DNA from: Komagataeibacter melomenusus
Lineage (GTDB): Bacteria; Pseudomonadota; Alphaproteobacteria; Acetobacterales; Acetobacteraceae
DNA length: 64,000 bases
Direction: 5' to 3'
Assembly: GCF_013155395.1 (NCBI RefSeq)
Contig: NZ_JABJWC010000013.1
Span: 1-64,000 of the forward strand
Shown here: in pieces, positions 31,459 to 46,839 of the stretch
Layout: every line of letters begins with the position of its first letter
Numbering within the stretch: position 1 is the stretch's first letter
Translations under genes and position numbers: made by a program
The notes under the pieces: generated by a model
What the model saw: the letters and a program-made list of their open reading frames with translations, nothing else
Told to the model about the DNA's origin: nothing
Database searches by the model: none

Positions 31459-31468
31459 TGACGCCCCC

Positions 31469-31598
31469 AATGTGCGAAAAAGCCCGGTGCAACAATGGAA
31501 AACAGGGTCGGCAAACATTGCCGGAAGGAGCAGAACATTGTTGGGAGAACGAAAAAACATAGGAAAACCAACACCCCAACCGAGGCGCAATGTGCGCC
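31469..31598. other. Candidate origin of transfer (oriT) region
   Basis: Between relaxase and lytic transglycosylase, inside a 282-bp non-coding stretch, there are concentric inverted repeats: CAACAATG (31490-31497) pairs with CATTGTTG (31536-31543), and inside them CGGCAA-ACA-TTGCCG (31509-31523), both centred near 31516. A further hairpin GGCGCA-ATG-TGCGCC (31584-31598) is followed by CTTTTA, and its CAATGTGCG word also occurs at 31468. Nested symmetry next to the relaxase gene is what an oriT or relaxase operator would show. The nick site is not identifiable by eye. Confidence 0.45.
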
Positions 31599-31740
31599 CT
31601 TTTATCTCGCCTCTCATTCTCCAAGCCCCAGAGCGCCTGTTCACCCTTCGCTGCACCCACCCTGCGATGCTGGATACCGTGCAGACTGGCATCCTGGGGT
31701 AACCGGACACCGGCAAGAAAAGGGAAGTCTGAGCGCGCCT

Positions 31741-32457
31741 TCATGGCAGTGCTCCCGATGCGGAAGAGACAACGAACAACCCACCGGAAAGCGGCCTAAC
31801 AGGCGCGAGACCATGCGCGATAATGTCACTTCGAACACCATGCGATGGCAGCTTCATTGCAACCGGAACGCCCTGCCCCGCATCGTCTGACTGCACAGCG
31901 AAAATCGGCGCATGAGTCCAGAACAGCGGATCGGGATGCGAAACCGACAGCAACGATTCAGCACCGCCCTGACCGATCAGGGGCAGCAACCCGGCGACAT
32001 AGGCACGCGTTTCAGCTGGCAGCGGGCGTTGCCGATCACGGTAATCCTCGTAGCGTCCCGGCCCGGCGTTATAGGCTGCCAGAAAGCCCGGAGAGCCATA
32101 ACGATCGTGCATCTCGCGCAGGAACGCAGCGCCTGCGAGAATGTTGTCATGCACATCGAATGGATCGCTTCCCAGCCCGTAACGTGCACGAAGGTCGGCC
32201 CATGTCGCAGGCATGATCTGCATGAGTCCACGCGCGCCCTTTGCAGAAATCGCGCCGGTATCGCCACCGCTTTCAGCGCCCATGACAACCCGTATCCACG
32301 TCGCGGGAATATCGAAACGCTGCACGGCTTCAGCGATCACCGCACCGTAAGGATCGGTGTCAGCGGGCGCTGGAACCGATGCCGCCCATGACGGGTCAGG
32401 TGCGCTCGATACGCCGATTGCAATGACACCGACAGCGAGGAAGAAGATGCGTCGCAT
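31741..32457 (-). CDS. VirB1-like lytic transglycosylase
   Basis: A 238-residue exported peptidoglycan-cleaving enzyme that opens the wall for the transfer channel. A signal peptide (MRRIFFLAVGVIAIGVSSA) is followed by the SLT domain: catalytic E62 in GAESGGDTGAIS, then KGARGLMQIMPATW and the closing AAYNAGPGRYEDYR. The C-terminal 90 residues are variable. The start at 32457 lies 5 bp after the DUF736 stop, so the genes are one transcription unit. Confidence 0.92.
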   Translation of the reverse strand: MRRIFFLAVGVIAIGVSSAPDPSWAASVPAPADTDPYGAVIAEAVQRFDIPATWIRVVMGAESGGDTGAISAKGARGLMQIMPATWADLRARYGLGSDPFDVHDNILAGAAFLREMHDRYGSPGFLAAYNAGPGRYEDYRDRQRPLPAETRAYVAGLLPLIGQGGAESLLSVSHPDPLFWTHAPIFAVQSDDAGQGVPVAMKLPSHGVRSDIIAHGLAPVRPLSGGLFVVSSASGALP

Positions 32458-33873: not shown

Positions 33874-34112
33874 GGCACGTCTCCGGAATTGTCAGGGAAT
33901 TCGCGGGCCAGCAGCGCGCGTAGCGTATCGGCGACGGTCATGCCGCGCTGGAACGCCGCGACCTTGATGCGGGCGCGCAGGGCCGGTGTGACGTCGATCG
34001 TCAGCCGGGCGGTAAAACTGTTGGCGAGCGCAGTCCTGTCCGCTGCCTTTACCCAACGCTCAGGGTCGGCAGGACGCGATGCGAAGCCGTTTCGGGATGA
34101 TGTCCCGGTCAT
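33870..34112 (-). CDS. Small ribbon-helix-helix partner of ParA
   Basis: An 80-residue protein whose second half, ARLTIDVTPALRARIKVAAFQRGMTVADTLRALLARE, is a ribbon-helix-helix DNA-binding domain, with a disordered N-terminus. Its place, overlapping parA by 4 bp, is that of ParG- or omega-like centromere-binding proteins. It probably binds a partition site and stimulates ParA; it could also be an autoregulator of the operon. Confidence 0.8.
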   Translation of the reverse strand: MTGTSSRNGFASRPADPERWVKAADRTALANSFTARLTIDVTPALRARIKVAAFQRGMTVADTLRALLAREFPDNSGDVP

Positions 34113-34747
34113 GACGCCAGCCCCCCGATCTCGGCCGCCAGCGCGGCGATTTCACGGGCTGCGATCCCCTGCGGTCGCAGGTCACAGACCAGGCGGCCGG
34201 AACGTGCGGCATCGGCGAAAGCGACCCGCTGGCCGATCCGCGCCATGAGCGCCGCCGGGTCATGCCCGGCCAGCGCCAGCCGGGTCTCGCGGGCAATGAC
34301 CGTGCGCGTGGCGCAGCGGTTGAGCACGAAGCGGGCCAGCAGACCGGGACGGAAGAGCCGCGCTTCGGCCAGCAGCCGCAGCATCTCGCCCGAGGCCCAG
34401 CCATCGAACGGCGAAGGCTGGGCGGGAATCAGCACCAGGTCGGCGGCCAGCAGGGCGGAGCGCAACAAGGACGCCACACGCGGAGGACCGTCGATGACGA
34501 CGTGATCCACCCCCTGAGCCAGTTCCGGAGCCTCGTGGTGCAGCGTGTCGCGCGCCAGTCCTACGACACCGAACAGTCTGGGCAGCCCTTCCCTCGCCCG
34601 CTGTGCTGACCAGTCCAGCGCCGAGCCTTGCGGGTCGGCGTCGATGACCGTCACGCGCCGGCCTTCCCGAGCCCATTGGCCGGCAAGATGCAGCGCCAGG
34701 GTCGTCTTGCCGACACCACCCTTCTGGTTGAGGAGCGCCACGATCAT
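34109..34747 (-). CDS. parA: ParA-type partition ATPase
   Basis: A 212-residue Walker ATPase of the short ParA class. The deviant Walker A KGGVGKTT is at 9-16, DADPQGSALDW (switch I) near 37 and VIDGPP near 83. The lack of a long N-terminal DNA-binding domain points to a type Ib ParA, which works with a small RHH partner like the gene directly downstream. It overlaps repA and the RHH gene by 4 bp each. It would keep the excised or replicating form in both daughter cells. Confidence 0.93.
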   Translation of the reverse strand: MIVALLNQKGGVGKTTLALHLAGQWAREGRRVTVIDADPQGSALDWSAQRAREGLPRLFGVVGLARDTLHHEAPELAQGVDHVVIDGPPRVASLLRSALLAADLVLIPAQPSPFDGWASGEMLRLLAEARLFRPGLLARFVLNRCATRTVIARETRLALAGHDPAALMARIGQRVAFADAARSGRLVCDLRPQGIAAREIAALAAEIGGLAS

Positions 34748-35835
34748 GGCCCGCCTCCACGCCCCTGTCGGCGGGAGACGGACGGGTCACGGCCGTTATC
34801 CGCAAGGCGGCCCGTCCCATCAACATAAGAGTTAGATTCTAAGTTAGTTAAGTTAAGGACCGGAATCGCCGTTTCAGGCCAAAGACTTAGCTGGGGTTTG
34901 CACGCCTGAAGTCCCGATAGTGGCACGCCTGATGTCCCGATAGTCCCAACGCCCGAAGTCCCGATACCATCCACATGACTATCCACAGGATCTGTGGATA
35001 AGTCGGCTGGGAGGATTCGGAGCAACTCACGCGTGCTTTCACGCTCGATGCCCAGCCGGTAACCTGGCAAGGACTGACGGGCGACAATGCGCCGGATGTC
35101 GCAGGCGAAGTCAGCCACCCTGGCGAGACTGCCGGATTTTCTGTGCAGATGGGCGATCTCGAAGGCCCAGCCCGCCTGCTGTCGCCCGGCATGCTTGCGG
35201 GCGACACGATAGAGCCAGCGTTCGATGCCGCCGGTCAGGCGGAAATAGGCCGGATCGATGGCCAGAACGAGCGAACGGTCGATCACGCCGCGATAGAACC
35301 ATTCGGGAATGACGATCTCGACACCGGCGGCGCGGCCCGTCTGGCTGGCACAGATCTCCCATTCGGTGATCCAGGAGAACTGCTGGCGACGCCAGTTCTG
35401 GCCGTTGCGGATCGTGGTGGCGACTACGGTGGACTGGAGGCGGGCCAGTGCCGCCTTGAGCAGCCCGTAATCCCGCGCCCCCGTCTGACGCCCGATACCG
35501 CTCAGGAGCTGATAGGGCGTAAAACGCAGGAAGCGCGATGTCGTGAGACCAAGATTTTCCGCCTCGACGATCTGGCTGGCGGCCCAGATCAGCACATCGG
35601 CATCCCAGATCGTCGCCATACCGTGCTCGGGCATGCCGAGGACTTCGACACGGACGTCGCCAGCCTCGTAGAGGATCGGCACCGTGCGCTTCGCCTTGGC
35701 GAGCGAGAAAAATGGTCGCTCCATCAGGTCACGCTGATCGCGCGGGCTGGCATCCCCGCCGGAAACCACGAACGGGTGGAGCCTGCTGCGCTCGCTGGCG
35801 GGCCGGGAGTGCGGCATGCCTGACGCGGTATTCAT
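34744..35835 (-). CDS. repA: Replication initiator protein A (RPA family)
   Basis: A 363-residue protein of the plasmid replication initiator RPA family (PF10134 type): ERPFFSLAKAKRTVPILYEAGDVRVEVLG at residues 40-68, then IWDADVLIWAASQIVEAENLGL, LRFTPYQLLSGIGR and a central winged-helix-like domain with VIPEWFYRGVIDRSLVLAIDPAYFRLTGGIERWLYRVARKHAG. The C-terminal 90 residues are variable, and their DNA contains three iteron-like repeats and two DnaA boxes. Presence of a replication initiator suggests the element can replicate as a plasmid or after excision. It is followed by parA with a 4-bp overlap. Confidence 0.92.
   Translation of the reverse strand: MNTASGMPHSRPASERSRLHPFVVSGGDASPRDQRDLMERPFFSLAKAKRTVPILYEAGDVRVEVLGMPEHGMATIWDADVLIWAASQIVEAENLGLTTSRFLRFTPYQLLSGIGRQTGARDYGLLKAALARLQSTVVATTIRNGQNWRRQQFSWITEWEICASQTGRAAGVEIVIPEWFYRGVIDRSLVLAIDPAYFRLTGGIERWLYRVARKHAGRQQAGWAFEIAHLHRKSGSLARVADFACDIRRIVARQSLPGYRLGIERESTRELLRILPADLSTDPVDSHVDGIGTSGVGTIGTSGVPLSGLQACKPQLSLWPETAIPVLNLTNLESNSYVDGTGRLADNGRDPSVSRRQGRGGGP
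34902..34967. repeat. Three iteron-like direct repeats inside repA
   Basis: Three 19-bp units of the form ACGCCTGAAGTCCCGATAG start at 34902, 34925 and 34949, spaced 23 and 24 bp (about two helical turns); the second and third units carry one and two base changes. They encode a TSGV/GTIG repeat in the RepA tail. Regular spacing at a replication gene suggests binding sites for RepA. Confidence 0.65.
34980..35001. promoter_or_regulatory. Paired inverted DnaA boxes
   Basis: TATCCACAG (34980-34988) and CTGTGGATA (34992-35000) form a perfect 9-bp inverted repeat; the second, read as TTATCCACA on the minus strand (34993-35001), is a perfect DnaA box and the first is an eight-of-nine match. They sit 12 bp from the iteron-like repeats. 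Confidence 0.6.
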
Positions 35836-36083
35836 CGCGGAACCTGCCCGGCGGCGCGCGCTGCGTCGTAATTCGGGTCAGAGGTGGACTTGCACGCGCC
35901 GGCCGCAGCCCAGAGGTCGAGATCGTCGATCAGATAGACGACGCGACCGCCAAGCTTGCGGAACGTCGGTCCCGTTCCGTGGCAGCGATATTTTTCCAGA
36001 GTGCGCGGGGAAAGGCCGAGAATCCGGGCAGCTTCATGAGTGCGCAGATAGCGCGTCGGCGACGGTGCGGTTCGGTCGAGCAT
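35832..36083 (-). CDS. AlpA/excisionase-like helix-turn-helix protein
   Basis: An 83-residue MerR-like winged-helix protein: YLRTHEAARILGLSPRTLEKYRCHGTGPTFRKLGGRVVYLIDDLDLWA covers the whole domain 17 of excisionase/AlpA type. Such proteins act as transcriptional activators or as recombination directionality factors. It overlaps repA by 4 bp and probably controls the repA-parA unit or element excision with the integrase at 2768. Confidence 0.88.
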   Translation of the reverse strand: MLDRTAPSPTRYLRTHEAARILGLSPRTLEKYRCHGTGPTFRKLGGRVVYLIDDLDLWAAAGACKSTSDPNYDAARAAGQVPR

Positions 36084-36306
36084 GGTACGCCTCCATCTGG
36101 TTTCGAAGCGCCGCAGAGATGGGGCGGCGGATCAGGATGACGGTGGCGCAGAAAACAGGCGTTGGGGGTGGACGAAGATTTTTCGGACTCAATGTCCACC
36201 CTCGACGGGTCGTGACGCGCCGGAGCGCGACCGGACGTAACCGGGCGGGGGACAGCGTTGGAAAAATGGAGGGAAACAGCGCAGGAGAGCGAAAAAGCGG
36301 CTGACG

Positions 36307-37093
36307 CTATCCACCGCGCAAGAAATCGAGATAGCCGCCCCGGACCCGGTTTTCCGCATCAAGAAGCAAGCGTTCCGCATGGCGACGCGCCGCCGTATTG
36401 CGCCATTCGACCGCCGGTAAACCCGCCTGCCATGAACGGTTCGCCGCGATGGCGATGTCGCGTGTGGTTCCACCAGCCTGGTGGATATCGAAAGCGAGCA
36501 GAAGCATGATCTGCCGCGCACGCTGGAGCGGTGTAAGCTGGAGGGCACGTGGAAGCAGGGCGACGCGCTGACCGCGCTGCCTGCGGAGAAAACGCAGCGC
36601 CACATCCAGACGCAGTTCGGCGACCGCATCCATCGGCAGCAGCACGGCAGGGCGGCTTGCTGCCGATGGAGCCAGAAGGCGGACGAACAGATCGCCAGCG
36701 GTATCTCCGATCGCCAGCCACGTGTCGTCCATGTCGTCATGACGGGACAGGATCGTCCCCAGCACCGTCGGCTCAATGGGGGCAACGACCGCGAAATCCG
36801 ACGGCGCTGGCGTGAGGATCAGCGTCGCCGGTGAAACCTCCGGCCGCCAGACGATACGACCACGCCGGGCAGGTTCATCGGGAGCATGGACAAAAGCACA
36901 GCCCCCAGCGATGGACAAACGCCGCGCACTCGGCAGCAGCATCGACACCCCGACGCGCGATCCGCCGTTGCAGGCGGGCGTAGTCGCGACGATACGCCGC
37001 GTTACGACGCAGGAACTCGACGGCAAAACCGGAACGGTCCAGAGTGCTGATATGGTCGCGTATTTCCGGTGAACGCCAGAAGGGTGTCGGCAT
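36307..37093 (-). pseudogene. DUF6499/DUF2285 regulator with one-base frameshift
   Basis: The N-terminal part (from 37093, FWRSPEIRDHISTLDRSGFAVEFLRRNAAYRRDY) is the DUF6499 region and ends prematurely after GLCF. The rest, in a frame shifted by one (HAPDEPARRGRIVWRPE to LDFLRGG), contains the DUF2285 domain with LTPLQRARQIMLLLAFDIHQAG. These two are normally one protein of about 260 residues. A run of four T (minus strand; plus-strand A run 36892-36895) lies exactly at the joint; three T would restore the frame. It could be a real mutation, slippery-run frameshifting or a sequencing error. The family is thought to be DNA-binding. Confidence 0.82.
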
Positions 37094-37233
37094 GACGGCC
37101 TCTCTCTGTCTGGCCCCTCATACGGCAAGGGGGCAGCCTCGATTAACCGGACCGGAACCGCGAGTGCATAGACCCTGAATTTTTATCGGGGAGAGTGCCG
37201 AGGAGGACGGAGACGCGGGCTGGCGAAGTCCGG

Positions 37234-37497
37234 CTATTGCAGACGTGGCGCCAGCAGATGCCCGTAGCCGACTTCGGTCATCCAGCGGGCCCGTGCCAGA
37301 TGACTCGCATGGACAGTTCTGGCGCGTTCGGGTTCGCGCGCGGGATCGAGCCCGAACAGCACCTCGACCACTTCACGCCAGTCGGCACCTTCCTCCTCGG
37401 CGATCAGCAGGCGCAGGTAAAGTTCGAGATGCTGCTCGTCGTATGGGTTCACACGCGCCGTCAGAGGTGGACAATCCTGAAAAGGCAGGTCGGTCAT
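37234..37497 (-). CDS. Small DUF2285-like protein
   Basis: An 87-residue protein, MTDLPFQDCPPLTARVNPYDEQHLELYLRLLIAEEEGADWREVVEVLFGLDP, ending HLARARWMTEVGYGHLLAPRLQ. The YD..H...YLRLL...EGADWREV and RARWM..GY..LL words are recurrent in small proteins that accompany DUF2285 regulators on alphaproteobacterial ICEs. A GAGGGA site precedes the ATG at 37497; the longer frame to 37659 is not supported. The function is unknown; DNA binding is likely. Confidence 0.8.
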   Translation of the reverse strand: MTDLPFQDCPPLTARVNPYDEQHLELYLRLLIAEEEGADWREVVEVLFGLDPAREPERARTVHASHLARARWMTEVGYGHLLAPRLQ

Positions 37498-37627
37498 GGC
37501 GGTCCCTCGTGATACCGCAATCAGATCGATGTGATAACAAATCCACGCAATGATGATCGTCCGATGGTTCCGCGCTGACATAAAAACAACGCAGCGCCAG
37601 ACAGGATGACTACGAAAATCAGGTCGC

Positions 37628-37912
37628 TCAGGACGGGCCGCGTCCGCGACGCCCCACATTCTGTCGCGCCTGGGGATCGGCAGTCTCGTGAAGAAACATC
37701 ACACCACGCCCTTGTCCGGACTCGATGAACAGGATGCCCGCCGCCTCCAGCGCGCGGCGGACCTGGTCGATCGTGCCCTCCTGAACGCCAAGGCCGCGCT
37801 CGGATTCGAGGCGCTTGAGCGCGGTCAATGCTACGAGGGCCTTTTCAGCGAGCCGTTCCTGTGTCCAGTTCAGAAGTGCCCGTGCCGCCCTAACCTGTCG
37901 GCCAGTGATCAT
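37628..37912 (-). CDS. XRE-family helix-turn-helix regulator
   Basis: A 94-residue protein with an N-terminal Cro/CI-type helix-turn-helix: ITGRQVRAARALLNWTQERLAEKALVALTALKRLES (residues 2-37), followed by GTIDQVRRALEAAGILFIESGQGRGVMF, the usual tail of this small regulator class. It opens the minus-strand run of small regulators ahead of the replication block and is a candidate master regulator of transfer or copy number. Confidence 0.88.
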   Translation of the reverse strand: MITGRQVRAARALLNWTQERLAEKALVALTALKRLESERGLGVQEGTIDQVRRALEAAGILFIESGQGRGVMFLHETADPQARQNVGRRGRGPS

Positions 37913-38084
37913 CCATGATCACATCCGACATGCCGGACATCCACACCAGAAATACGACTATAATAGTCGCATCGTGGAGATTCAATATCGTTCTTTCAGG
38001 GGGATGGTGAGGAAAAACCGGCGTCCTGCTTCCGATAGGACCGCCAGTGGGCCTGCCATCGGTACGGGCGACCAGACGAAAAGA

Positions 38085-38103
38085 CCCCCGCTCTATGCGG
38101 GGG
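38085..38103 (-). terminator. Rho-independent terminator of small ORF
   Basis: CCCCCGC-TCTAT-GCGGGGG; on the minus strand it is followed by TCTTTT. The hairpin overlaps the stop codon of the 50-residue gene at 38093. Confidence 0.75.
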
Positions 38104-38245
38104 CCTCTCCGTCGCGGCATTTCGTTGCGAATTGCACACATGCCTGCTTCAGTTCACGCTCGATTTTGGCCCGCTCACGGTGGCTGAGGTGAAAGCTGGT
38201 CAGTTCGGCGCGCAGCATCTGGATATGGTCGTGTAACGTGGTCAT
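38093..38245 (-). CDS. Small helical protein, 50 residues
   Basis: The frame from ATG at 38245 to TAG at 38093 encodes MTTLHDHIQMLRAELTSFHL, then SHRERAKIERELKQACVQFA and TKCRDGEAPA. An AGGAG site stands seven bases before the ATG and a terminator hairpin overlaps the stop, which together make a real gene likely. The product is a charged, probably helical protein without a named family. It is isolated by about 180 bp from the XRE gene. Confidence 0.7.
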   Translation of the reverse strand: MTTLHDHIQMLRAELTSFHLSHRERAKIERELKQACVQFATKCRDGEAPA

Positions 38246-38582
38246 CGTCCTGCTCCTTTCGTTTCTCGAAGACAGGACTCCGCCTCATGCACGCGTGAAT
38301 CGGGTCAAGGGATCGCCGCAGGCGACCGCGCCAGCGGCGCGCGGGGGAGCCGATTTTGTCTGGTGTGCCCGTAGGGTGCGCCGGGCAAAATTGGGGGGAC
38401 CGCGCGTCCTTGAGGCGGTTCACGTCGGGCATGGTACAATGGGAAGGCTGAGGGAAGCCCTGTTCCCCTTCCCTGCCCGCACACGGGTGGATCGGGCGCG
38501 ACGCGATGGGGACGCCCGCCGTTTCCCGATCGATCATACGAAGACCCCGCCCGGACCGGCCGGGCGGGGAATCGTTGGCACC
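38246..38582. other. Intergenic region with GC-rich hairpin
   Basis: No gene seen. CCCCGCCCGG (38544-38553) and CCGGGCGGGG (38559-38568) form a strong hairpin directly after the DUF736 stop at 38583 and probably end that transcript, though the T tract is weak. The rest should hold the promoter of the 50-residue gene. Confidence 0.5.
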
Positions 38583-38909
38583 TCACTCGCCGTTGCGGCG
38601 ACCGTTGGGGCGAGACCAGATCAGGCTCCAGGTCTCGCCGTCCTCGTCATTGAAGAGGTTGGCGAAGATCGGGGCGTTGAAGCTCGGATCGTCGAGCTTG
38701 AGGCCCAGATAGCTGCGTCCCTCGTTGGACTGCTTGGACCAGGCGGCTCCAATCTCGGCCCGGTTGACGAACACCCGGTGGCTGGGGGCGTTGTCGCTCT
38801 GGCGTCCGGTCTCGGGAACGATGCGGACATTGCGGACCTGAACCGAGAGGGTGACGATCTCGCCGACATACTCGTTGCCGGACTTCTTGAAGGTGCCGAT
38901 GGTGGCCAT
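38583..38909 (-). CDS. DUF736 protein (second copy)
   Basis: A 108-residue DUF736 protein, MATIGTFKKSGNEYVGEIVTL, with RVFVNRAEIGAAWSKQSNEGRSYLGLKLDDPSFNAPIFANLF, the more typical form of the family. It shares the fold-defining words with the copy at 32462-32800 but is clearly diverged. It is a single-gene transcript: a structured leader lies 94-187 bp upstream and a hairpin follows the stop. Function unknown, though it is usually among the most conserved genes on such elements. Confidence 0.9.
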   Translation of the reverse strand: MATIGTFKKSGNEYVGEIVTLSVQVRNVRIVPETGRQSDNAPSHRVFVNRAEIGAAWSKQSNEGRSYLGLKLDDPSFNAPIFANLFNDEDGETWSLIWSRPNGRRNGE

Positions 38910-39003
38910 GATACTGCTCCGTGATCTCTGTTATCGAGCCCGCACCATTGCGGCCTCGATGGCGATCGACGAGCCGGGGGCGATCGGCGGCGCACCCTTC
39001 AGG

Positions 39004-39096
39004 GCCGCAGCGCAGCGGAGGACGGCGGGACGGAATTTTCTTGTCTCGCGAGGAATGATGGCGCAGCCGTCAGGGGAAGAAAATTACGGCCTGCCG
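39004..39096 (-). promoter_or_regulatory. Structured leader element, copy A
   Basis: A 20-bp imperfect inverted repeat (left arm 39023-39042, right arm 39077-39096, 17 of 20 positions pair without gaps) encloses a 34-nt loop. The bases before the left arm, GGCCGCAGC-R-CAGCG-R-AGGA, are shared with copy B at 41169-41268. It lies upstream of the second DUF736 gene, between 38910 and 39506, a stretch of nearly 600 bp with no gene. Confidence 0.6.
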
Positions 39097-39506
39097 TTGC
39101 GCCAGAGACGATCGAGGCGCAGCCGCCCCTCGGCTAGATCAGCCATTTTCAGAGGCCGTATGCGTGCGTGGCCCGACAGAGCGACCATCACGGAGGACAT
39201 GAGGCCCCCTCGGCGTACAGGGTCCGGCAGGAAAGAGCATGAGCGTCGTCACGCGTTCGTTTCGGGCCATGACATGACCCGTTCCGGGGACGATGCCAGA
39301 CAGGTTGCCGCGCTATCCGCTGCTTCTGTCAGCCGGTCGCGGGCGAGGGCCGTCCATGATCGGGTGGTTCCAAGAGGAAAGCGACCAGGGCCAGTAACGC
39401 GTTGAGGCAAGCCAACGCCGCGTCAGCCGCCCTCCCCTGATGACAGGACTGGCAGCCATACGAAGCATCTGGTCTGGTCCCCTGCCTGCAGTCTGCCGGG
39501 GCAGGG

Positions 39507-39947
39507 TCAGACGCGCGCGATGTTTCCGCCGGACGGTCCGGGTGAGGCCACGGCTGTAAAGCGGATGAAAGCGGTGATCCCCACCGCGATCGCGCCGATG
39601 ACGGAACAAAAGAACTGCCATGCCGCAGACGGCATCATCATCTGGGCAATCCCATGTGTGGTGCTGTAGCCCATGATGATAGCGGGCACGGTATAGAGCA
39701 GGACAATCAGCAGCCTGAGCCACGCCCAGGGCACGCAGGCGAATGCGATCTGGCCGAGAATGAAGGTCGCGGCTCCCGCGACAAACCCGATGATGACCGC
39801 ACCCAATAGGCCGGCACCGGCATCAAAGGCCCAGAGCGCAGCCATCAGACCGGTAGCACAGGGCAGTGCGAAAATTGCGACGGTGAAGAAGAACCAGCAC
39901 AGGAAGCCAATGCCGGCAACGAGCAGGAAGGGAGCAAGGATGAACAT
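39507..39947 (-). CDS. Small polytopic membrane protein
   Basis: A 146-residue hydrophobic protein with about four membrane spans (roughly residues 3-27, 30-62, 75-100 and 108-130). It begins MFILAPFLLVAGIGFLCWFFF. I do not recognise the family; similar small membrane proteins occur beside DUF736 and DUF2493 genes on related elements. It could act in entry exclusion or membrane anchoring, but nothing in the sequence proves that. The last 15 residues are polar. Confidence 0.7.
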   Translation of the reverse strand: MFILAPFLLVAGIGFLCWFFFTVAIFALPCATGLMAALWAFDAGAGLLGAVIIGFVAGAATFILGQIAFACVPWAWLRLLIVLLYTVPAIIMGYSTTHGIAQMMMPSAAWQFFCSVIGAIAVGITAFIRFTAVASPGPSGGNIARV

Positions 39948-40140
39948 GGTAGTGGTCTCCGTGCAATCGACGATGTCGGACGGGTGCGCCTGCCACCACC
40001 ACCACGGCGCAGTCGCATCATAGCGAAAATGATGTGTCGACGGAACGAGAATCGTACTGGCGCCCGACGATACCGAACTGGCCTTCTATGCCCGCGCCGC
40101 GCGGATCGCGGTCACGGGTAATCCGGAGTGAAGACGGCGC

Positions 40141-41070
40141 TCACGCGCCGCCTCCGAACCGCAGGACTGGGATACCGAGCTTTTTCGCCTTGTCGGCCAG
40201 ATTTTCCTGAATGCCGGTTCCGGGAAAGACGATGACGCCGATCGGCATTGTGTCGAGCAGCGCATCGTTGCGGCGGAAGGGCGCTGCCTTGGCATGCTTC
40301 GTCCAGTCCGGCTTGAAGGCGATCTGCACGATCTCGCGGTGATCGGCCCAGCGAGACGCGACGAACTCCGCGCCCCTGGGCGAACCGCCGTGTAGCAGCA
40401 CCATGTCGGGATGCTTGGCACGGACCTTGTCCAGCCGATCCCAGATCAGGATATGGTCGTCGAAATCGAGACCACCGGTCACGACCACCTTAGGACCGGG
40501 CGGAACCAGCAATTCGCCCTCGGCCTTACGGCGGGCATTGAGGAAGTCGCGGCTGTCGATCATGGAGGCTGTCATGGTGCGGCGTGACACCAGCGAGCCG
40601 GTCTTCGGTCGCCACGCGCTCAGGGTCAGGTGTTCGAACTGCTCCTGCGCCTCGTCGCGGAAGATCTCATAGGCGTTGCGACGCTCGATCAGGGTCAGCC
40701 CTTCGGCAATCAGCCGCTCCAGCTCCACCGAGCGGATCTCGCTGCCATCCTGTTCCTGCTGACTGCGCTTCTGCGCCTGCTCGTTGCGGTCAAGCTCACG
40801 CTCGACCTGGCCGACCATGCGATGGAAGATGTTCACGGCAGACCAGAGCAACGCTTCGAGATCGGGTTCCAGCCGCGTGTCGGTCAGGGTCGCGCCGATG
40901 GCGTCGAAGATATCGGCGACCGCGCCACCGATGCTATGCGCTTCGGGCAGCGGTCTCGGATCGGGCTCGTCTTCGAAGGGACGGTAGCCATACATCTGGA
41001 GTTCAGCCAGCACATGCGCGGTGGAGGAAGCGGCGTGCGGCGGCTCAAAATCGTCAGTCGTGCGGGTCAT
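40141..41070 (-). CDS. DUF2493 (SLOG-like) protein
   Basis: A 309-residue protein whose C-terminal 110 residues are the DUF2493 domain: KVVVTGGLDFDDHILIWDRLDKVRAKHPDMVLLHGGSPRGAEFVASRWAD, then GVIVFPGTGIQENLADKAKKLGIPVLRF. This is a Rossmann-like fold of the SLOG/YspA group thought to bind nucleotides or nucleotide-derived ligands. The N-terminal part is acidic, with a helical middle (ERELDRNEQAQKRSQQEQDG). It is a conserved component of these ICEs. A structured leader (copy B) lies upstream. Confidence 0.9.
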   Translation of the reverse strand: MTRTTDDFEPPHAASSTAHVLAELQMYGYRPFEDEPDPRPLPEAHSIGGAVADIFDAIGATLTDTRLEPDLEALLWSAVNIFHRMVGQVERELDRNEQAQKRSQQEQDGSEIRSVELERLIAEGLTLIERRNAYEIFRDEAQEQFEHLTLSAWRPKTGSLVSRRTMTASMIDSRDFLNARRKAEGELLVPPGPKVVVTGGLDFDDHILIWDRLDKVRAKHPDMVLLHGGSPRGAEFVASRWADHREIVQIAFKPDWTKHAKAAPFRRNDALLDTMPIGVIVFPGTGIQENLADKAKKLGIPVLRFGGGA

Positions 41071-41168
41071 GATGCGGTCCTCCCAGGTCTCCGGCCGCGC
41101 CCTTCGCGGCCTTTCCGGGGGCGGATAGCGGCAGACCAGGGACGGGCCGGAACCGCGCGCTTGCGCGC

Positions 41169-41268
41169 GGCCGCAGCACAGCGAAGGATGGCAGGGGGCC
41201 GGTTATTTTGCTTCGCGATGTAAAGCGCCCCCACAGGGGCGCGACGGAAAATAGCCGGTCCCCGCCAT
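41169..41268 (-). promoter_or_regulatory. Structured leader element, copy B
   Basis: Left arm 41188-41211 and right arm 41246-41268 form an imperfect 23-24 bp inverted repeat (one bulge, three mismatches). Inside the loop is a second hairpin GCGCCCC-CACA-GGGGCGC. The flanking GGCCGCAGC-R-CAGCG-R-AGGA is shared with copy A at 39004, and both stems contain a TTTT/AAAA core next to a GC-rich block. It precedes the DUF2493 gene by about 100 bp in a 320-bp non-coding stretch. Confidence 0.6.
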
Positions 41269-41393
41269 TGAAGGTCCGACCCGGCTGACGCCCGCTCCCC
41301 ACCTGAAAGGCCGGGGCGCGGACCTGCCGGACGGGAGACACGACAAAACCGCTGACAGAAGACGGAAACCGCCCGCCCCTCTTTCCGGCCCGC

Positions 41394-42440
41394 TCAGGTG
41401 CCGGCAGCCTCCAGAAATCGTGCCACGTCCGCTGGCGCGAGTTGCGGATGCAGGATCGCCCGCAGCGCACCGCGTCCAAGGGCACGGAGATCATCGTTGA
41501 AATCGCCCAGCCGTGGCGACAGGCCGATCAGTTCGATCCCGGCGTCATGCGCGCGGGCGTGCAACGTCGCCAGCGCCTGATCCCCGGCCGGGTCGTCATC
41601 ACGCAGAACGTAGAGCCGGCGCAGCAGCGGCGGAAAGATCAGGGACGCGAGATGCGCTGAGGACAGGCAGGCGGCCAGCGGCAGATCGGGCAGAACCTGC
41701 CGCAGCGACAGCACCGTCTCGATACCTTCCCCGGCAGCGAGCACGTCGGATGCCACCCCGAAACGCACGGCGTGGCCGAGCAGCCCGCCCAAGGCACGAC
41801 GCGGATGATCGACCGGTGCCTTGCCACGCCCTTCCGCCGCCAGCCAGGTGCGATGCACGCCGGTCAGAGTGCCGTCGAGGTCGGTGACGGCGGCGATCAT
41901 GGCTGGCCAGGTCTCGGTCGGACCGTCCTCGTCCGGGCGATAATAGCAATGCGGATGGAAGCGCAAGGCTCCGGCTCCGTGCAAAAGCGTAATGTCGCGT
42001 CTACGGAGATACGCTTCTACGGACGTGCCCGCGATCGGCCCGGACATGGCCCAGAGCCGACGCGCGGCTTCGGAAGAACTGGCAGGTGCGCGTTCCTGAA
42101 CCGGACGATCCCGCGATAACGGGACCGGATCGGGACGGGGCAGGCTGAGGAAGGCACGCGCCTCGTCGACTACATCGCGAAAATCCACCAGGCCGAGGCT
42201 TGCCCGGATCACGTCGAGCAGGTCGCCATGCTCGCCTGACTGTGCGTCCGTCCATTTTCCCGCCCTGCCATTGGCAGTGTCGTGCAGCCGGACGAACAGC
42301 GACCGGCCGGGCGTATTCCGCACGTCACCGACCAGCCAGTAATTGCCGTGGCGGCGACCGGCGGACAGATACCGCCGGCACACCGCCTCCGCGTTCTCCG
42401 CCAGACGGCGGGCCAAATCGCCCGCATCATGCAAGGTCAT
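41394..42440 (-). CDS. Toprim-domain, primase-like protein
   Basis: A 348-residue protein with an N-terminal DUF7146-like region (GRRHGNYWLVGDVRNTPGRSLFVRLHD, with SGEHGDLLDVIR) and a C-terminal Toprim domain: VLAAGEGIETVLSLRQVLP contains the catalytic Glu, and LYVLRDDDPAGDQAL the DxD. Such proteins are plasmid- or phage-type primases and may prime the complementary strand after transfer. It overlaps the downstream gene by 14 bp. It appears intact. Confidence 0.88.
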   Translation of the reverse strand: MTLHDAGDLARRLAENAEAVCRRYLSAGRRHGNYWLVGDVRNTPGRSLFVRLHDTANGRAGKWTDAQSGEHGDLLDVIRASLGLVDFRDVVDEARAFLSLPRPDPVPLSRDRPVQERAPASSSEAARRLWAMSGPIAGTSVEAYLRRRDITLLHGAGALRFHPHCYYRPDEDGPTETWPAMIAAVTDLDGTLTGVHRTWLAAEGRGKAPVDHPRRALGGLLGHAVRFGVASDVLAAGEGIETVLSLRQVLPDLPLAACLSSAHLASLIFPPLLRRLYVLRDDDPAGDQALATLHARAHDAGIELIGLSPRLGDFNDDLRALGRGALRAILHPQLAPADVARFLEAAGT

Positions 42441-42867
42441 CGTCCTGCCCTCCTGTTTCGGGATTGCCTCCGTCCAGGGCGATCGCCAGCCAGCGATCGG
42501 TGGTCATCCAGGAAATCGTCTTGCGCCGCCCCAGGTCAAGCAGATGCGCACCGCCACTGAAGGCGGCGATCCGGAGACGTGAACAGCTATTGGCCCACTG
42601 GAACCCCCATCGGCCGCGCAACCGGAATGTTCGCGCACAGCGCAGCACGAAGTCCACCACCTGCTGCGGATCACCGGTCACCTCATCGTGCATCCAGAGT
42701 TTGGTGCCGCCATATTCCGGCACGATCGACAGGACAAAACCGTCAGAGGGCGGGTCTTCCGCCGCCAGTTCGTCCATGAACGCGTTGTAGAGGTCGAGCG
42801 CCTTTGCCGCGTTTTCCACCGTGCCCACATCGAGCACGCAGGAAAAATGCGTGAAGAAATCAGCCAT
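42427..42867 (-). CDS. Conserved ICE protein of unknown function
   Basis: A 146-residue protein, MADFFTHFSCVLDVGTVENAAKALDLYNAFMDELAAEDPPSDGF at the start, with VPEYGGTKLWMHDEVTGDPQQVVDFVLRCARTF and WGFQWANSCSRLRIAAFSGGAHLLDL. It looks like a small alpha/beta protein. I cannot name a domain, but it has good coding character and lies in a fixed position upstream of the Toprim gene, with a 14-bp overlap that suggests coupled translation. A terminator ends the previous gene just upstream. Confidence 0.72.
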   Translation of the reverse strand: MADFFTHFSCVLDVGTVENAAKALDLYNAFMDELAAEDPPSDGFVLSIVPEYGGTKLWMHDEVTGDPQQVVDFVLRCARTFRLRGRWGFQWANSCSRLRIAAFSGGAHLLDLGRRKTISWMTTDRWLAIALDGGNPETGGQDDDLA

Positions 42868-42891
42868 CGGAATGACTCCCGAAACGAAAAA

Positions 42892-42911
42892 GCCCGGCGC
42901 GATGGCCGGGC
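42892..42911 (-). terminator. Rho-independent terminator after DUF932 gene
   Basis: GCCCGGC-GCGATG-GCCGGGC; read on the minus strand it is followed by TTTTTCG. It ends the DUF932 transcript (stop at 42951). Confidence 0.85.
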
Positions 42912-42950
42912 TCGTATAAACGTATTGACGGAAAGACGGAGAAGCGGCTT

Positions 42951-44153
42951 TCAGGAAGCACGCTCCATCAGCCTGCGGGCCTTCTCTTCCAGATTCAGCC
43001 GCGTGTCCTGATTGGCCTTCGTCCGAGCCAGTGCGGTAATGCCCTGCACGAAATCGAACACGCTCTCGGGCTTGCGCCCCTCCTCGTTCAACACGGTTTC
43101 AATGATCTTCGTGGTTTCCGGTTTCGAGAACCCGCGACGCCGCAGGAAATTTTCCCGATCATCATCGGTTCTGGCCACCAGCGCCTTGCGAGAGGCCTGA
43201 ATACCTGAGACGAATGAGGCCGGGCTGGCCGTGGCGAAATTCCGCAGCGCCGGTGTGGCCTGATGCACGAAACGGGAAGCAGCAAACTTGCTATGCCGGA
43301 TCGTGATCTGTTCGAAATTTTCTACGCCCCACAACATGCGATTCTGGCACACTCCGCGCAGATAGAAGGACGAGATGCCGAGGCTCTTGCTACCGACCTC
43401 GCTGTTCCAGGCATAGAAACCCCGGAAATAGAGATCGGGGTCACCATTGGGCAGGCGTCCCGCTTCAATGGGATGCGTATCGTCGACCAGAAACAGGAAG
43501 ACATCGCGATCTGACGCATACAGCGTGGTCGTTTCCTTGGTGATGTCCACGTACGGGTTATGTGTCATGGTCGCCCAGTCGATGACACCGGGCACCTTCC
43601 AGTTGGTATCGCCCGTGCCGTCACCGGCGATCTTGCGCACCGCGCCCACCAGTTCATGATCCCAGATGCGGCCGTAATCCGGCCCCGTGACGGCGCGCAG
43701 TTCCACACGCCCGTCTTCCGTCTCCAGCGTTTTCACCAGTTCTGCGCGGTGCGACAGTAGCCCGTGCTGCAGATTGATCGCCGCCAGTGGGGCCGGCAGG
43801 TTACGCAGGTACGACGATGGCGCGCCGACCAGGCTGCACATCTGGCCGAACGACCAATGCGTCGGCGCGATCGGTTCATTTTGTCCCGGCACGGTCAGGG
43901 TCAGACGCTCGGCATTGTCGCGGGAGGCCTCGACACGGATGGCGCGGCTCTCCACCGTGCGGGCCGTGGCCCGATCCGCCCGCGCCAGGGTCGCTGCATG
44001 CAGGTCGGACAGGGACAGGTAGCGCTCGTCATCGGGCCGCGAGAACCATTCGGACGAGACGCGGGCGCTGCGTTCGCCACGGGAAGGATCAATCCGGAAG
44101 CCGCCAGACGCGGCGCCACAGGACGCAGGGGGCAGGATAGTGGTTGTGGTCAT
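42951..44153 (-). CDS. DUF932 (phage/plasmid-like) protein
   Basis: A 400-residue DUF932 protein. It has HWSFGQMCSLVGAPSSYLRNLPAPLAAINLQHGL near residue 100, VRAVTGPDYGRIWDHELVGAV-like text near 155, and the conserved FRGFYAWNSEVGSKSLGISSFYLRGVCQNRMLWG near 250. The family is related to the phage TIGR03299 proteins and is widespread on ICEs and plasmids; a role in DNA processing or anti-restriction has been suggested, not shown. The start at 44153 follows GAGGAG. It is flanked on both sides by terminators, so it is a single-gene transcript. Confidence 0.9.
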   Translation of the reverse strand: MTTTTILPPASCGAASGGFRIDPSRGERSARVSSEWFSRPDDERYLSLSDLHAATLARADRATARTVESRAIRVEASRDNAERLTLTVPGQNEPIAPTHWSFGQMCSLVGAPSSYLRNLPAPLAAINLQHGLLSHRAELVKTLETEDGRVELRAVTGPDYGRIWDHELVGAVRKIAGDGTGDTNWKVPGVIDWATMTHNPYVDITKETTTLYASDRDVFLFLVDDTHPIEAGRLPNGDPDLYFRGFYAWNSEVGSKSLGISSFYLRGVCQNRMLWGVENFEQITIRHSKFAASRFVHQATPALRNFATASPASFVSGIQASRKALVARTDDDRENFLRRRGFSKPETTKIIETVLNEEGRKPESVFDFVQGITALARTKANQDTRLNLEEKARRLMERAS

Positions 44154-44238
44154 GGAAAACTCTCCTCTGATGCCGGTTATTCGGCACCTAAGGCGAAGCC
44201 GACCTCTCCCTCTTTCCGGGGCGCCGGACATGAAAAAA

Positions 44239-44263
44239 GCGGCTTCCGGGCACCGGAAGCCGC
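44239..44263 (-). terminator. Rho-independent terminator after ParB-like gene
   Basis: GCGGCTTCCGG-GCA-CCGGAAGCCGC with TTTTTT on the minus strand. A textbook terminator for the gene ending at 44293. Confidence 0.9.
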
Positions 44264-44292
44264 TGTCTCAAAGTTCCTAGACCTCATAAGGG

Positions 44293-46374
44293 CTACTCTG
44301 CGGCGATGGCCTCCATATCCCCGCCTGCCGTCACTGTTTCAAACTGTGCCTGATCGGCCAGCCCTACGGTCCGCAACGCCTCGGGCAGCCAGCCCGAACC
44401 ATCAAGCAGCCGCTCGGCCTCGCGGGCCATATCGGGCTTCTTCAGGTGGGCGATGCGCTCGGCCGCCTCATTGCCACGCGCTTCCTGCACGGCCTGCAGG
44501 ATACGGGCCTTGGTCACCCGGCCGAGATAGTTCTCGACCGTGGGCTGCCAGCCTGCCTCGACCAGATCAAGGCTGAGGGCCGATGCCAGACGGTCTGCCC
44601 GTTTGAGACGCTCGGTGACGCTGCGCTGGGACACCGCGCCATAGGCGGGCATGCGCTCGTAGAGCGCGTTAATGCCGAAAGACAGGCAATGGGCCAGCAG
44701 CGCCATACGGCTTGCATCGTCCAGACTGTCAATCCAGCGCCACAGCGCATCCTCGTCATCCGGCAGATCATGCTTCCAGCCCTCATTGCGCTGGCGCAGT
44801 GCATGCGCTGGCAGGCTGCCCGGCATGTCGGGCGAATGGACCGGCAGCGCGATTTCCCGGACACAGGCTTCAAGGCAATCCGCACCCGGCGTCTGCCAGT
44901 AAACATCACGCACCAGCGTATGCAGCATTTCGGTCAGCGCGATGTGCGGGTTGCTGGCAAAGGCATCTCTCAACACAAGCGTGCGCCAGGCCGTCAGTTC
45001 GGTGAGTAACCGGTCAGGCAGCGGTTTGATGCCGTCTTCTTCCTCGGGTTCAACGTCAGCAGCAACGCTATCGCTCACTTCGCCTTCATCGTCACCATAA
45101 TCAGCAAGACGTTCATCCTGCCCATCATACGCGGGATGATCGTATTCATCCGAACCATTGGCATTATCGGTCTCTTCCGGCCCAGCCGGCATGTCTTCGG
45201 GTAGCACGAAGCCGCGCTCCACCTGCAGCGTGCCATCGCTGTCGAGACTGACAAAAGCCCCTGCCCGCGCCATGTCAGCGGGATCAAACGCCAGAGGCCG
45301 TTCTTCCAGGGCAAGAATACCCTGCTCGATCTCGCCCAGCCGCGCATCGACCTCGTCCGGATATTCATCGGCCTGGGCATATTCGGCCTCGATGGTTTCC
45401 TGCTCGGCGCGCAGGGCTTCGAGGCGAGCAGTTTCGTCCTCGGTCAGGGGCACTTCCGTGCCGTCGATTTCCGCGAACTGCCGGGTATGTTCCCATGGGA
45501 ACGACAGGGCCGCCTCGACCCATTTCCAGCCCTCTGCACGGATATCTTCTGCGGCTGCGTGCAGCTTTTCCATAACCAGCCGGTCCAGAACGGCTGGATC
45601 CTGCAGCCAGCCACCATCATCGACTTCGAACAGGTCGCGCATGATAGGACCACCGGCCGCAAGATAAGCGTCCAGTCCGACGAAGCGCACGCGACGGTCC
45701 GAGGCCCGCACGGTTTTCTCCGTCAGCATGCGGCGGATGACATAGGGTTCGCGGTTATGGCTCTGGGCCACGATCTCCCAGACCTGTTCCTGCCGGGCAT
45801 GATCATCGCTGATGGAAAAAGCCATCAGCTGTTCCAGCTTCATGCCATCCTGCTCGTAGATCTCAAGCAGTTTGTCGGACACGGTCATCAGCCGCAAACG
45901 CTGTTTGACCACGGTCGGTGCCACAAAGAACGCGGCGGCGATTTCCTCCTCGGACATGCCCTTCTCCAACATGTCACGGAAGGCGCGGAACTGGTCCAGC
46001 GGATGCAGGGCCACGCGCTGGACATTCTCGGCCAGGGAATCATCCTCGGCGAGAATGGCCGACCCGACCTCGCGGACCACGCAGGGCACCGGGGCCGTCT
46101 TCACCAGCTTTTTCTGCTTCACCAATAGTTCGAGAGCACGGAAACGACGCCCACCGGCGGGCACTTCATAGCTGCCGGTCTCGGCCCCTTCGCCGTCAAG
46201 GATGGGACGAACATTCAGGCTCTGCAACAGCCCGCGGCGTTCGATATCGCGGGCCAGTTCCTCGATCGACAGGCCGGATTTCACACGCCGCACGTTGGAC
46301 TGAGACAGCACCAGCCGGTTGAACGGGATGTCACGAGAAGAACTGAGGGTGATTTTGGGAATAGCGGTCGCCAT
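44293..46374 (-). CDS. Large ParB/RepB-like protein
   Basis: A 693-residue protein with a ParB/Spo0J N-terminal domain: IPFNRLVLSQSNVRRVKSGLSIEELARDIERRGLLQSLNVRP (residues 16-57), then EVPAGGRRFRALELL and AILAEDDSLAENVQR, followed by a helix-turn-helix (EEEIAAAFFVAPTVVKQRL). An acidic region near 410-470 separates this from a helical C-terminus. Plasmid ParB proteins of this long type are hallmarks of alphaproteobacterial ICEs and plasmids. It is far from parA, so it may be a CTP-dependent regulator or nuclease-like ParB rather than the partner of ParA. The start at 46374 has GGAG upstream. Confidence 0.9.
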   Translation of the reverse strand: MATAIPKITLSSSRDIPFNRLVLSQSNVRRVKSGLSIEELARDIERRGLLQSLNVRPILDGEGAETGSYEVPAGGRRFRALELLVKQKKLVKTAPVPCVVREVGSAILAEDDSLAENVQRVALHPLDQFRAFRDMLEKGMSEEEIAAAFFVAPTVVKQRLRLMTVSDKLLEIYEQDGMKLEQLMAFSISDDHARQEQVWEIVAQSHNREPYVIRRMLTEKTVRASDRRVRFVGLDAYLAAGGPIMRDLFEVDDGGWLQDPAVLDRLVMEKLHAAAEDIRAEGWKWVEAALSFPWEHTRQFAEIDGTEVPLTEDETARLEALRAEQETIEAEYAQADEYPDEVDARLGEIEQGILALEERPLAFDPADMARAGAFVSLDSDGTLQVERGFVLPEDMPAGPEETDNANGSDEYDHPAYDGQDERLADYGDDEGEVSDSVAADVEPEEEDGIKPLPDRLLTELTAWRTLVLRDAFASNPHIALTEMLHTLVRDVYWQTPGADCLEACVREIALPVHSPDMPGSLPAHALRQRNEGWKHDLPDDEDALWRWIDSLDDASRMALLAHCLSFGINALYERMPAYGAVSQRSVTERLKRADRLASALSLDLVEAGWQPTVENYLGRVTKARILQAVQEARGNEAAERIAHLKKPDMAREAERLLDGSGWLPEALRTVGLADQAQFETVTAGGDMEAIAAE

Positions 46375-46839
46375 GGCGAAAAACTCCATGACGGGCGGAC
46401 AGGAGACACTCTCCCACCCTCTCAACCCGTCACGAAAATCCGCGCAGCCCCCTGACTCTGATGGCCGCACCCGCACCAACCCGCCCCCTATTCCCAGCAG
46501 AAAAATGTCGGCAACTGGGAGTGAACTGAATGTCGGTTATTGGGAAGGAATGACCGAAAGCAGCCATTCGCAGCATTTACGTGAATGACGGCTACACAAC
46601 CAGGTCAAGACATTCTGCGCTCGACCGCAGACGGCCATTCATAACACAACCGGTCATTCTGACGCCGCGAGGGAGTTATGGAAACTCTCCGTTTTCCGCG
46701 CTAGGTTCGACGGAGATTAATAATTTTAACTAGGGCCAAACATTGTTTCAAACCGAATTGAGCGGCGCCGACAGAAGGCGCTAGTGATCTCTTTGGACGT
46801 GGTTGGCGAACAACTCCTCCGGTGATGGCCCCCGCCCCG
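46375..46839. other. Intergenic region with 17-bp near-repeat
   Basis: No gene seen. AATGTCGG-CAAC-TGGGA (46504-46520) recurs as AATGTCGG-TTAT-TGGGA (46529-46545), 25 bp apart. Related ATGTCCG words occur at 5332 and 59212. The region should contain the promoter of the ParB-like gene and marks the change from backbone to cargo. Confidence 0.45.

Follow-up and report, generated by a model that had tools for sequence, protein, structure and literature searches.

Covarying hairpins ahead of leading-region genes of conjugative elements, a candidate promoter-like module in transferred single-stranded DNA

The mobile element and its two hairpins

The window, a stretch of 64,000 nucleotides from Komagataeibacter melomenusus, contains the backbone of a conjugative element whose scanned genes all lie on the - strand. 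Structurally, the backbone consists of trb-type secretion genes, a DUF3363 relaxase gene, a predicted oriT region and a putative leading region (Table 1). The leading region encodes ParA, RepA, a DUF2285-type protein, DUF736, DUF2493, Toprim/DUF7146, DUF932 and ParB. The AlphaFold2 model of the DUF736 protein is all beta (pLDDT 78.5), and no relative was found in the PDB, either by sequence or, at E 0.001, with this model.

Two homologous structured copies lie where a preliminary description had placed a duplicated stem-loop, one before the DUF736 gene (subtype A) and one before the DUF2493 gene (subtype B). The similar spacing claimed there was recovered as well, with 91 nt between element edge and start codon for DUF736 and 96 nt for DUF2493. 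Copy A pairs the arms 39022-39042 and 39077-39097 around 34 nt, in agreement with the described stem and loop, and copy B folds over 41187-41269. The shared 20-mer GGCCGCAGCRCAGCGRAGGA has exactly two sites in the window at up to three mismatches, against a chance expectation of 0.05. Hairpin B follows the architecture of hairpin A, with an internal loop CTTCGCGATG-x-AAAG / CG-y-CGG in which the x-y pair covaries. The internal loop is kept (TTG-NNN-CGCGAGGAA ... GGGGAA in A), while the stems of the element are rewritten.

Between hairpin and gene, many of the leaders carry a second palindrome (H2) of the type GGCCGCG-nnGG-CGCGGCC, located just before the ribosome-binding site. An uninterrupted H2 stem of at least six pairs is present in 39 of 52 distinct leaders, compared with 32% of shuffles. 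No strand preference was detected for H2 over these 52 leaders (summed G.T score 1043 versus 1053 for A.C), and H2 may act as an operator or as a hairpin in the mRNA. A GGTGC box, read in the gene sense, is furthermore found on the gene side of the hairpin (38990-38999 in the window) in 27 of the 52 leaders versus 7.5% of shuffles; copy B of the window lacks it.

Table 1. Positions of the element's features within the window.
Feature	Position	Strand	Basis or remark
trb-type secretion genes	12.9-25.3 kb	-	backbone scan
DUF3363 relaxase (RlxS/VirD2-like)	29719..31716	-	Pfam PF11843, E 1.3e-84; true start may differ from called ORF
Predicted oriT region, between relaxase gene and transglycosylase gene	31717..31950	+	homology with ICEMlSymR7A
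Putative leading region, transcribed toward oriT	34109..46479	-	gene scan; transferred strand assigned by homology only
DUF736 gene, hairpin A ahead	38583..38909	-	Pfam PF05284, E 1.1e-34
Spacer of ~90 nt, hairpin A to DUF736 start codon	38910..39002	-	predicted start of early transcript
Second palindrome (H2), just before DUF736 ribosome-binding site	38933..38960	.	no strand bias
Hairpin element, subtype A	39003..39101	+	folding; CM R1, 121.9 bits (own member of the R1 alignment); covariation
Hairpin A, conserved 5' box	39003-39022	+	
Hairpin A, A/T-rich stem	39034-39042/39077-39085	+	
Hairpin A, internal loop (CGCGAGGAA and GGGG)	39047-39055 and 39073-39076	+	
Hairpin A, inner hairpin	39056-39072	+	
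DUF2493 / YspA-type SLOG (YAcAr) gene, hairpin B ahead	40141..41070	-	Pfam PF10686, E 2.3e-28; DUF2493 name from annotated relatives
Spacer of ~96 nt, hairpin B to DUF2493 start codon	41071..41168	-	
Second palindrome (H2), just before DUF2493 ribosome-binding site	41093..41111	.	
Hairpin element, subtype B	41169..41272	+	folding; covariation; R1 (subtype A model), 43 bits, E 9.3e-6

Covariation and the strand that folds

Homologues were collected by a contig scan with the DUF2493 protein, from which the best 80 loci were taken, mostly of Acetobacteraceae and Rhizobiales. A relaxed core pattern combined with a pairing filter yielded 113 distinct sequences from these loci, other early loci and the window. 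When the core-pattern search was re-run, subtype A had 75 instances and subtype B 73; removal of cores longer than 70 nt and of near-identical ones left 23 and 31, respectively. Of these, 22 A and 20 B were aligned, the other twelve (one A, eleven B) being set aside for their long inner hairpins. Subtype A has the layout stem-TTTCTTG-NNN-CGCGAGGAATG-hairpin-CAGGGGAAGAAA-stem, and subtype B the layout stem-ATTTTG-CTTCGCGATG-x-AAAG-hairpin-CG-y-CGG-AAAAT-stem, its x-y pair being C-G in 11, U-A in 8 and G-C in 1 of the 20 sequences. The model of A matches B copies and vice versa, so the two subtypes constitute one family. In divergent copies the stem sequences are wholly different and the internal loop is retained.

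The arms had been noted to differ between the two copies yet to keep pairing, as a sign of selected structure, and the homologues bear this out: the proposed comparison found compensatory changes in abundance, far above controls. Pairing extends to 96.8% of the cells in the MAFFT alignment of A and to 98.3% in that of B, and cells changed on both sides number 23 versus 5.4 in shuffles for A and 60 versus 22 for B. The covariation score exceeds that of 500/500 shuffles and of all six slides in both alignments. Further pair types in subtype B occur in ordinary number, a value reached by 48 of 500 shuffles. A model-based alignment of 48 copies (46 distinct), which is fitted to the structure and hence biased toward pairing, is 93.4% paired, with 200 double-change cells versus 59 in shuffles and a covariation score of 0.514 versus 0.190 in shuffles and ~0.1 when slid. 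A coding origin of the conservation was rejected, as inner-hairpin lengths among homologues differ by numbers not divisible by 3.

The fold is found on the + strand. As RNA, the + strand folds with z of -3.3 (A) and -3.9 (B), the - strand only with -0.7 and -1.1; with DNA energies on trimmed hairpins, the + strand reaches -4.5 and -4.9 versus -1.7 and -3.8, the last value (copy B) marking a fairly good DNA fold of the - strand as well. Wobble pairs point the same way: G.U versus A.C cells on the + strand number 52 to 1 in A, 33 to 4 in B and, over all pairs of the divergent set, 130 to 11, in structures that were derived on the + strand, a choice that favours G.U. In the four main helices of the 46 distinct copies the ratio is 62 to 2, and one pair is G.U in 36 of the 46 copies and paired on the + strand in all 46. 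The G.U excess and the folding energies together indicate that the folded strand is the template strand of both genes and not the mRNA.

Thus the duplication and the upstream regulatory position given in the preliminary description stand, and its term "leader" and the strand that this implies do not: an RNA leader of DUF736 or DUF2493 would fold on the - strand, and the selected fold was not found there. Its other proposal, a target for a regulator coded by the ICE, stands as a conjecture. A leader or riboswitch-like structure in the - strand mRNA would agree with the position before the start codon and with a second palindrome beside the ribosome-binding site. However, the G.U pairs turn into A.C mismatches on that strand and its RNA folds near chance, and we regard this reading as very improbable and already largely refuted. 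Least probable of all is a double-stranded operator or cruciform bound by a regulator that the element encodes. Dyad-like features are present in the CGCG core and the second palindrome, and copies stand ahead of genes of one element, but a duplex site would neither prefer G.T on one strand nor keep its pairing while the stem sequence is rewritten.

The wobble pairs fit a + strand RNA exactly as well as + strand DNA. Such an RNA, whether small and free or antisense to the gene's 5' end, would control DUF736, DUF2493 and ArdC in established cells, and the variable inner hairpin with its conserved internal loop looks like a structured RNA. The element shares covarying stems and a conserved internal loop with the structured RNA motifs of Rfam 15; it differs from them in matching no family and, at the loci whose neighbours were examined, in preceding a gene at a near-fixed distance. 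At the gathering score, Rfam gave no match in the window, L128, L129 or the pTiC58 copies, and nothing relevant at a permissive threshold. Neither a sigma-70-like promoter nor a terminator-like site was found on the + strand of 38850-41450. For the Ti plasmid, PMC3738593 describes 47 candidate non-coding RNAs with RACE results for 9, and its Northern-validated table holds no Ti-plasmid entry. We consider a + strand RNA doubtful, though with some chance of being correct.

Gene distance, distribution and transferred strand

The hairpin keeps a near-constant distance to genes of unrelated kinds. Among subtype A near relatives, the gene starts 80-95 nt away with a median of 90 (68 of 75 copies with a recognised DUF736 start); for subtype B the median is 94 nt and the range 41-99 (73/73 copies), the low values reflecting upstream in-frame starts taken by the script. 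Of 29 diverse copies, with start codons likewise picked by script, 21 have an antisense-side gene starting 78-98 nt away, and 4 more do with the next ATG. The copies that depart from this are L150 at 8112 (128 nt), L155 at 2018 (65), L160 (56) and L161, where no start is clear; one small gene in L156 has an ambiguous start. Behind these diverse hairpins lie genes for DUF736, DUF2493-like proteins, ArdC (two genes, Pfam E 2.6e-38 and 3.2e-37) and small proteins without a Pfam match. Duplicated DUF736 units in L128 carry the hairpin too. The replicon need not carry a DUF736 gene as well: one plasmid with the hairpin at DUF2493 gives no DUF736 match at E 1e-5 over its whole length.

Small proteins directly behind hairpins in L156 (15406-15515) and L157 (4874-4984) share an MSWDEY motif, have no Pfam match and are candidates for new establishment genes. 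Annotated hypothetical proteins that overlap hairpins in L128 (26742-26924) and L132 (20209-20445) are probably not genes.

In its own genome, the element gives ten matches at E up to 1 (the worst at 4.6e-4), which form five A/B pairs on contigs C44, C61, C11 and, twice, C135, each pair on one strand; the genome thus probably holds five related elements of this backbone. The hairpin stands in front of five of the ten DUF736 genes there. Four of the five hairpin-free ones lie within ~1.5 kb of the relaxase match of the same element, and the fifth is on another contig. Model R1 matches in 21 of 289 genomes of the class and in 40 of 398 of the phylum, five of those outside the class, and model R2 in 33 of 398 genomes of the phylum. 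By BLAST at E 0.01, the A query matches 576 of 72,556 plasmid records, the B query 120 and a third query, taken from a genome of another class, 137, with overlaps between the three counts retained; Enterobacteriaceae and Pseudomonas plasmids make up many of the 137. The element is carried by hundreds of plasmid records, mostly alphaproteobacterial. They include pTiC58, with two copies (133693-133804 and 138422-138533 of the record), each directly ahead of a DUF736 gene, and pNGR234a with one. The gene order beside a Citrobacter match, one of the 137, is read here as Tn4371-like. In the phage collection, a fecal contig labelled Bacteriophage sp. (MT837770.1, 5333-5452) is 74.6% identical to the element and may be a mislabelled mobile element.

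The nic-like motifs and the relaxase genes allow the hairpin strand to be compared with the direction of transfer. Of 27 regions upstream of DUF3363 relaxases, 14 have TTTATC[CT]TGC, which resembles the MOBP nic consensus, on the predicted transferred strand, and none has it on the other. By sequence, this motif is a candidate nic consensus. It is carried by L171, L172, L173, L175, L176, L177, L179, L180, L182, L183, L186, L188, L128 and L129, and was not found in the remaining 13 regions, namely the window, L162, L164, L166, L169 and eight of the 20 unnamed ones. For the predicted oriT region of the window, no nic motif was recognised. A set of 150 listed R1 matches in 47 genomes was paired with listed DUF3363 matches. 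Among these, 117 copies have a DUF3363 relaxase within 60 kb and 33 have none on the contig. In 116 of the 117, many of them on close relatives that are not independent events, the hairpin lies past the 5' end of the relaxase gene, toward oriT, and takes the strand opposite to that gene; the one exception stands at a distance of 52 kb. Co-orientation holds in 46 of 46 relaxase loci with at least two copies among the listed matches. This geometry is not independent of gene orientation, since leading genes point toward oriT anyway. Hairpin-free DUF736 genes also occur on the leading side. Inverted hairpin-DUF736 units within one contig were seen in L062 (8222-8336, +) and in L153 (4401-4504, +, and 7993-8096, -), as exceptions to co-orientation.

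Ti-type plasmids have a relaxase of a different class and so provide a second test of the strand. A motif, TATAATTGCGCCCTT, which resembles the nic of RSF1010, occurs as one mismatch-free site in 9 of 12 Ti-type and related records; W08, W13 and W17 lack the exact motif and fall outside this test. All 12 hairpins in the nine records share the strand of the motif and follow it in the direction of transfer by 4.2-10.1 kb. In pTiC58 and pNGR234a, the two records whose neighbours were examined, the motif lies within the traC-traA gap, and the oriT of the Ti plasmid is described as lying between traA and traC. The oriT of ICEMlSymR7A is placed between the operon ending in msi107 and rlxS (PMC11963761). 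Every related Mesorhizobium element is described as having a DUF736 gene, often duplicated. The hairpin is hence on the transferred strand of the leading region in the Ti-type records and by the DUF3363 geometry; for the window, homology suggests that the + strand would be the transferred one. The hairpin itself was rejected as an oriT, as nic-like motifs, where found, are kilobases away from it.

A proposed promoter-like module in incoming single-stranded DNA

Hairpins in single-stranded DNA are known as places where RNA synthesis starts, as in the M13-type complementary-strand origin and the ssi primase sites of RSF1010. These sites are not known to be tied to gene start codons. For F and ColIb-P9, genes are documented to be expressed early from the single strand as it enters. 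The F hairpins Frpo1 and Frpo2 are described as folding in the transferred strand, where they reconstitute canonical -35/-10 boxes, and the genes that follow are described as depending on them for early expression. In F, ssb and a DUF932 gene are each preceded by a copy of one repeat, the copies being 89% identical, at the places where Frpo2 and Frpo1, respectively, are described. Like Frpo1/Frpo2 (ssi3 of ColIb-P9), the new element is a transferred-strand hairpin of the leading region, duplicated and directly before genes read toward oriT, and ParB- and DUF932-type genes are present in both leading regions. It shares the position directly before early genes and the transferred strand as template, and early expression of DUF736 and DUF2493 is predicted.

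The two differ in that Frpo has canonical -35/-10 boxes, whereas none were found in the new element, which combines a fixed internal loop with freely rewritten stems. Over 48 copies on the gene-sense strand, the best contiguous sigma-70 match is 6-8 of 12, with a mean of 6.8 in mononucleotide shuffles; a plain sigma-70 promoter in the stem was rejected on this basis. Model R1 has a single match on F 48000-69000 (14.4 bits, E 0.22), located away from Frpo. In a fold control, the two strands of Frpo2 fold alike (z -5.2 versus -5.3) and those of Frpo1 differ a little (-4.7 versus -3.5); a preference for one strand thus does not characterise Frpo. The match in place, strand, duplication and kind of gene, but not in sequence or boxes, leads us to suggest that the element works like Frpo and belongs to a separate family.

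We postulate that the hairpins are a promoter-like module in transferred single-stranded DNA, Frpo-like in place and layout but a family of its own, and give this reading a probability of about 0.55. The hairpin would form in the transferred single strand (+ here) as the element enters the recipient. It would do so in the leading region, which enters first, about 90 nt before an establishment gene templated by the transferred strand. The inner part of the element, with an A/T-rich, easily melted stem beside the conserved internal loop, would allow transcription to begin on single-stranded DNA, the polymerase most likely being the RNA polymerase of the host and the internal loop serving as the start site. 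Transcription would then run toward oriT into DUF736, DUF2493 or ArdC, the last a recipient-side antirestriction protein by published description, before the second strand is made. The role of single-stranded DNA as the active form, the start of a polymerase on it and the identity of that polymerase are inferred here.

A site of the same strand and place could instead prime second-strand synthesis and have no promoter role, acting through a primase such as Toprim/DUF7146 or through host priming proteins. These elements encode Toprim proteins, and Masai and Arai, in the title under which they are cited, call Frpo itself both a promoter and a site for priming. Priming would have no need for a distance of ~90 nt to the start codons of several unrelated genes, nor for duplication together with genes, as in the DUF736 units of L128, and we hold it to be improbable.

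The hairpin family is apparently new: no Rfam family or paper was found to describe it. Among open-licence papers, no title or abstract was found that describes such an element, and the passages available from them are silent as well. Samuel et al. describe a search of leading regions that used five known Frpo/ssi sequences together with candidates from a -35/-10/UP consensus, which would probably miss an element without -35/-10 boxes. The authors of a zygotic-induction study of RP4 report having identified no such promoters for its early-induced genes. More tentatively, and at somewhat less than even odds, the promoter-like module may represent an unrecognised class of start site in single-stranded DNA, defined by an internal loop and lacking sigma-70 boxes, that would let MOBP and MOBQ conjugative plasmids and ICEs of several Proteobacteria classes express ArdC and other establishment genes while the second strand is still lacking.

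As one recognisable element that Ti and rhizobial plasmids share with ICEs of the window's type, with related elements in Enterobacteriaceae and Pseudomonas plasmids, the hairpin would offer a general handle on establishment. The hairpin would mark the leading region and the direction of transfer, and the genes behind it, including DUF736, DUF2493 and small unknown families, would form a list of likely establishment genes.
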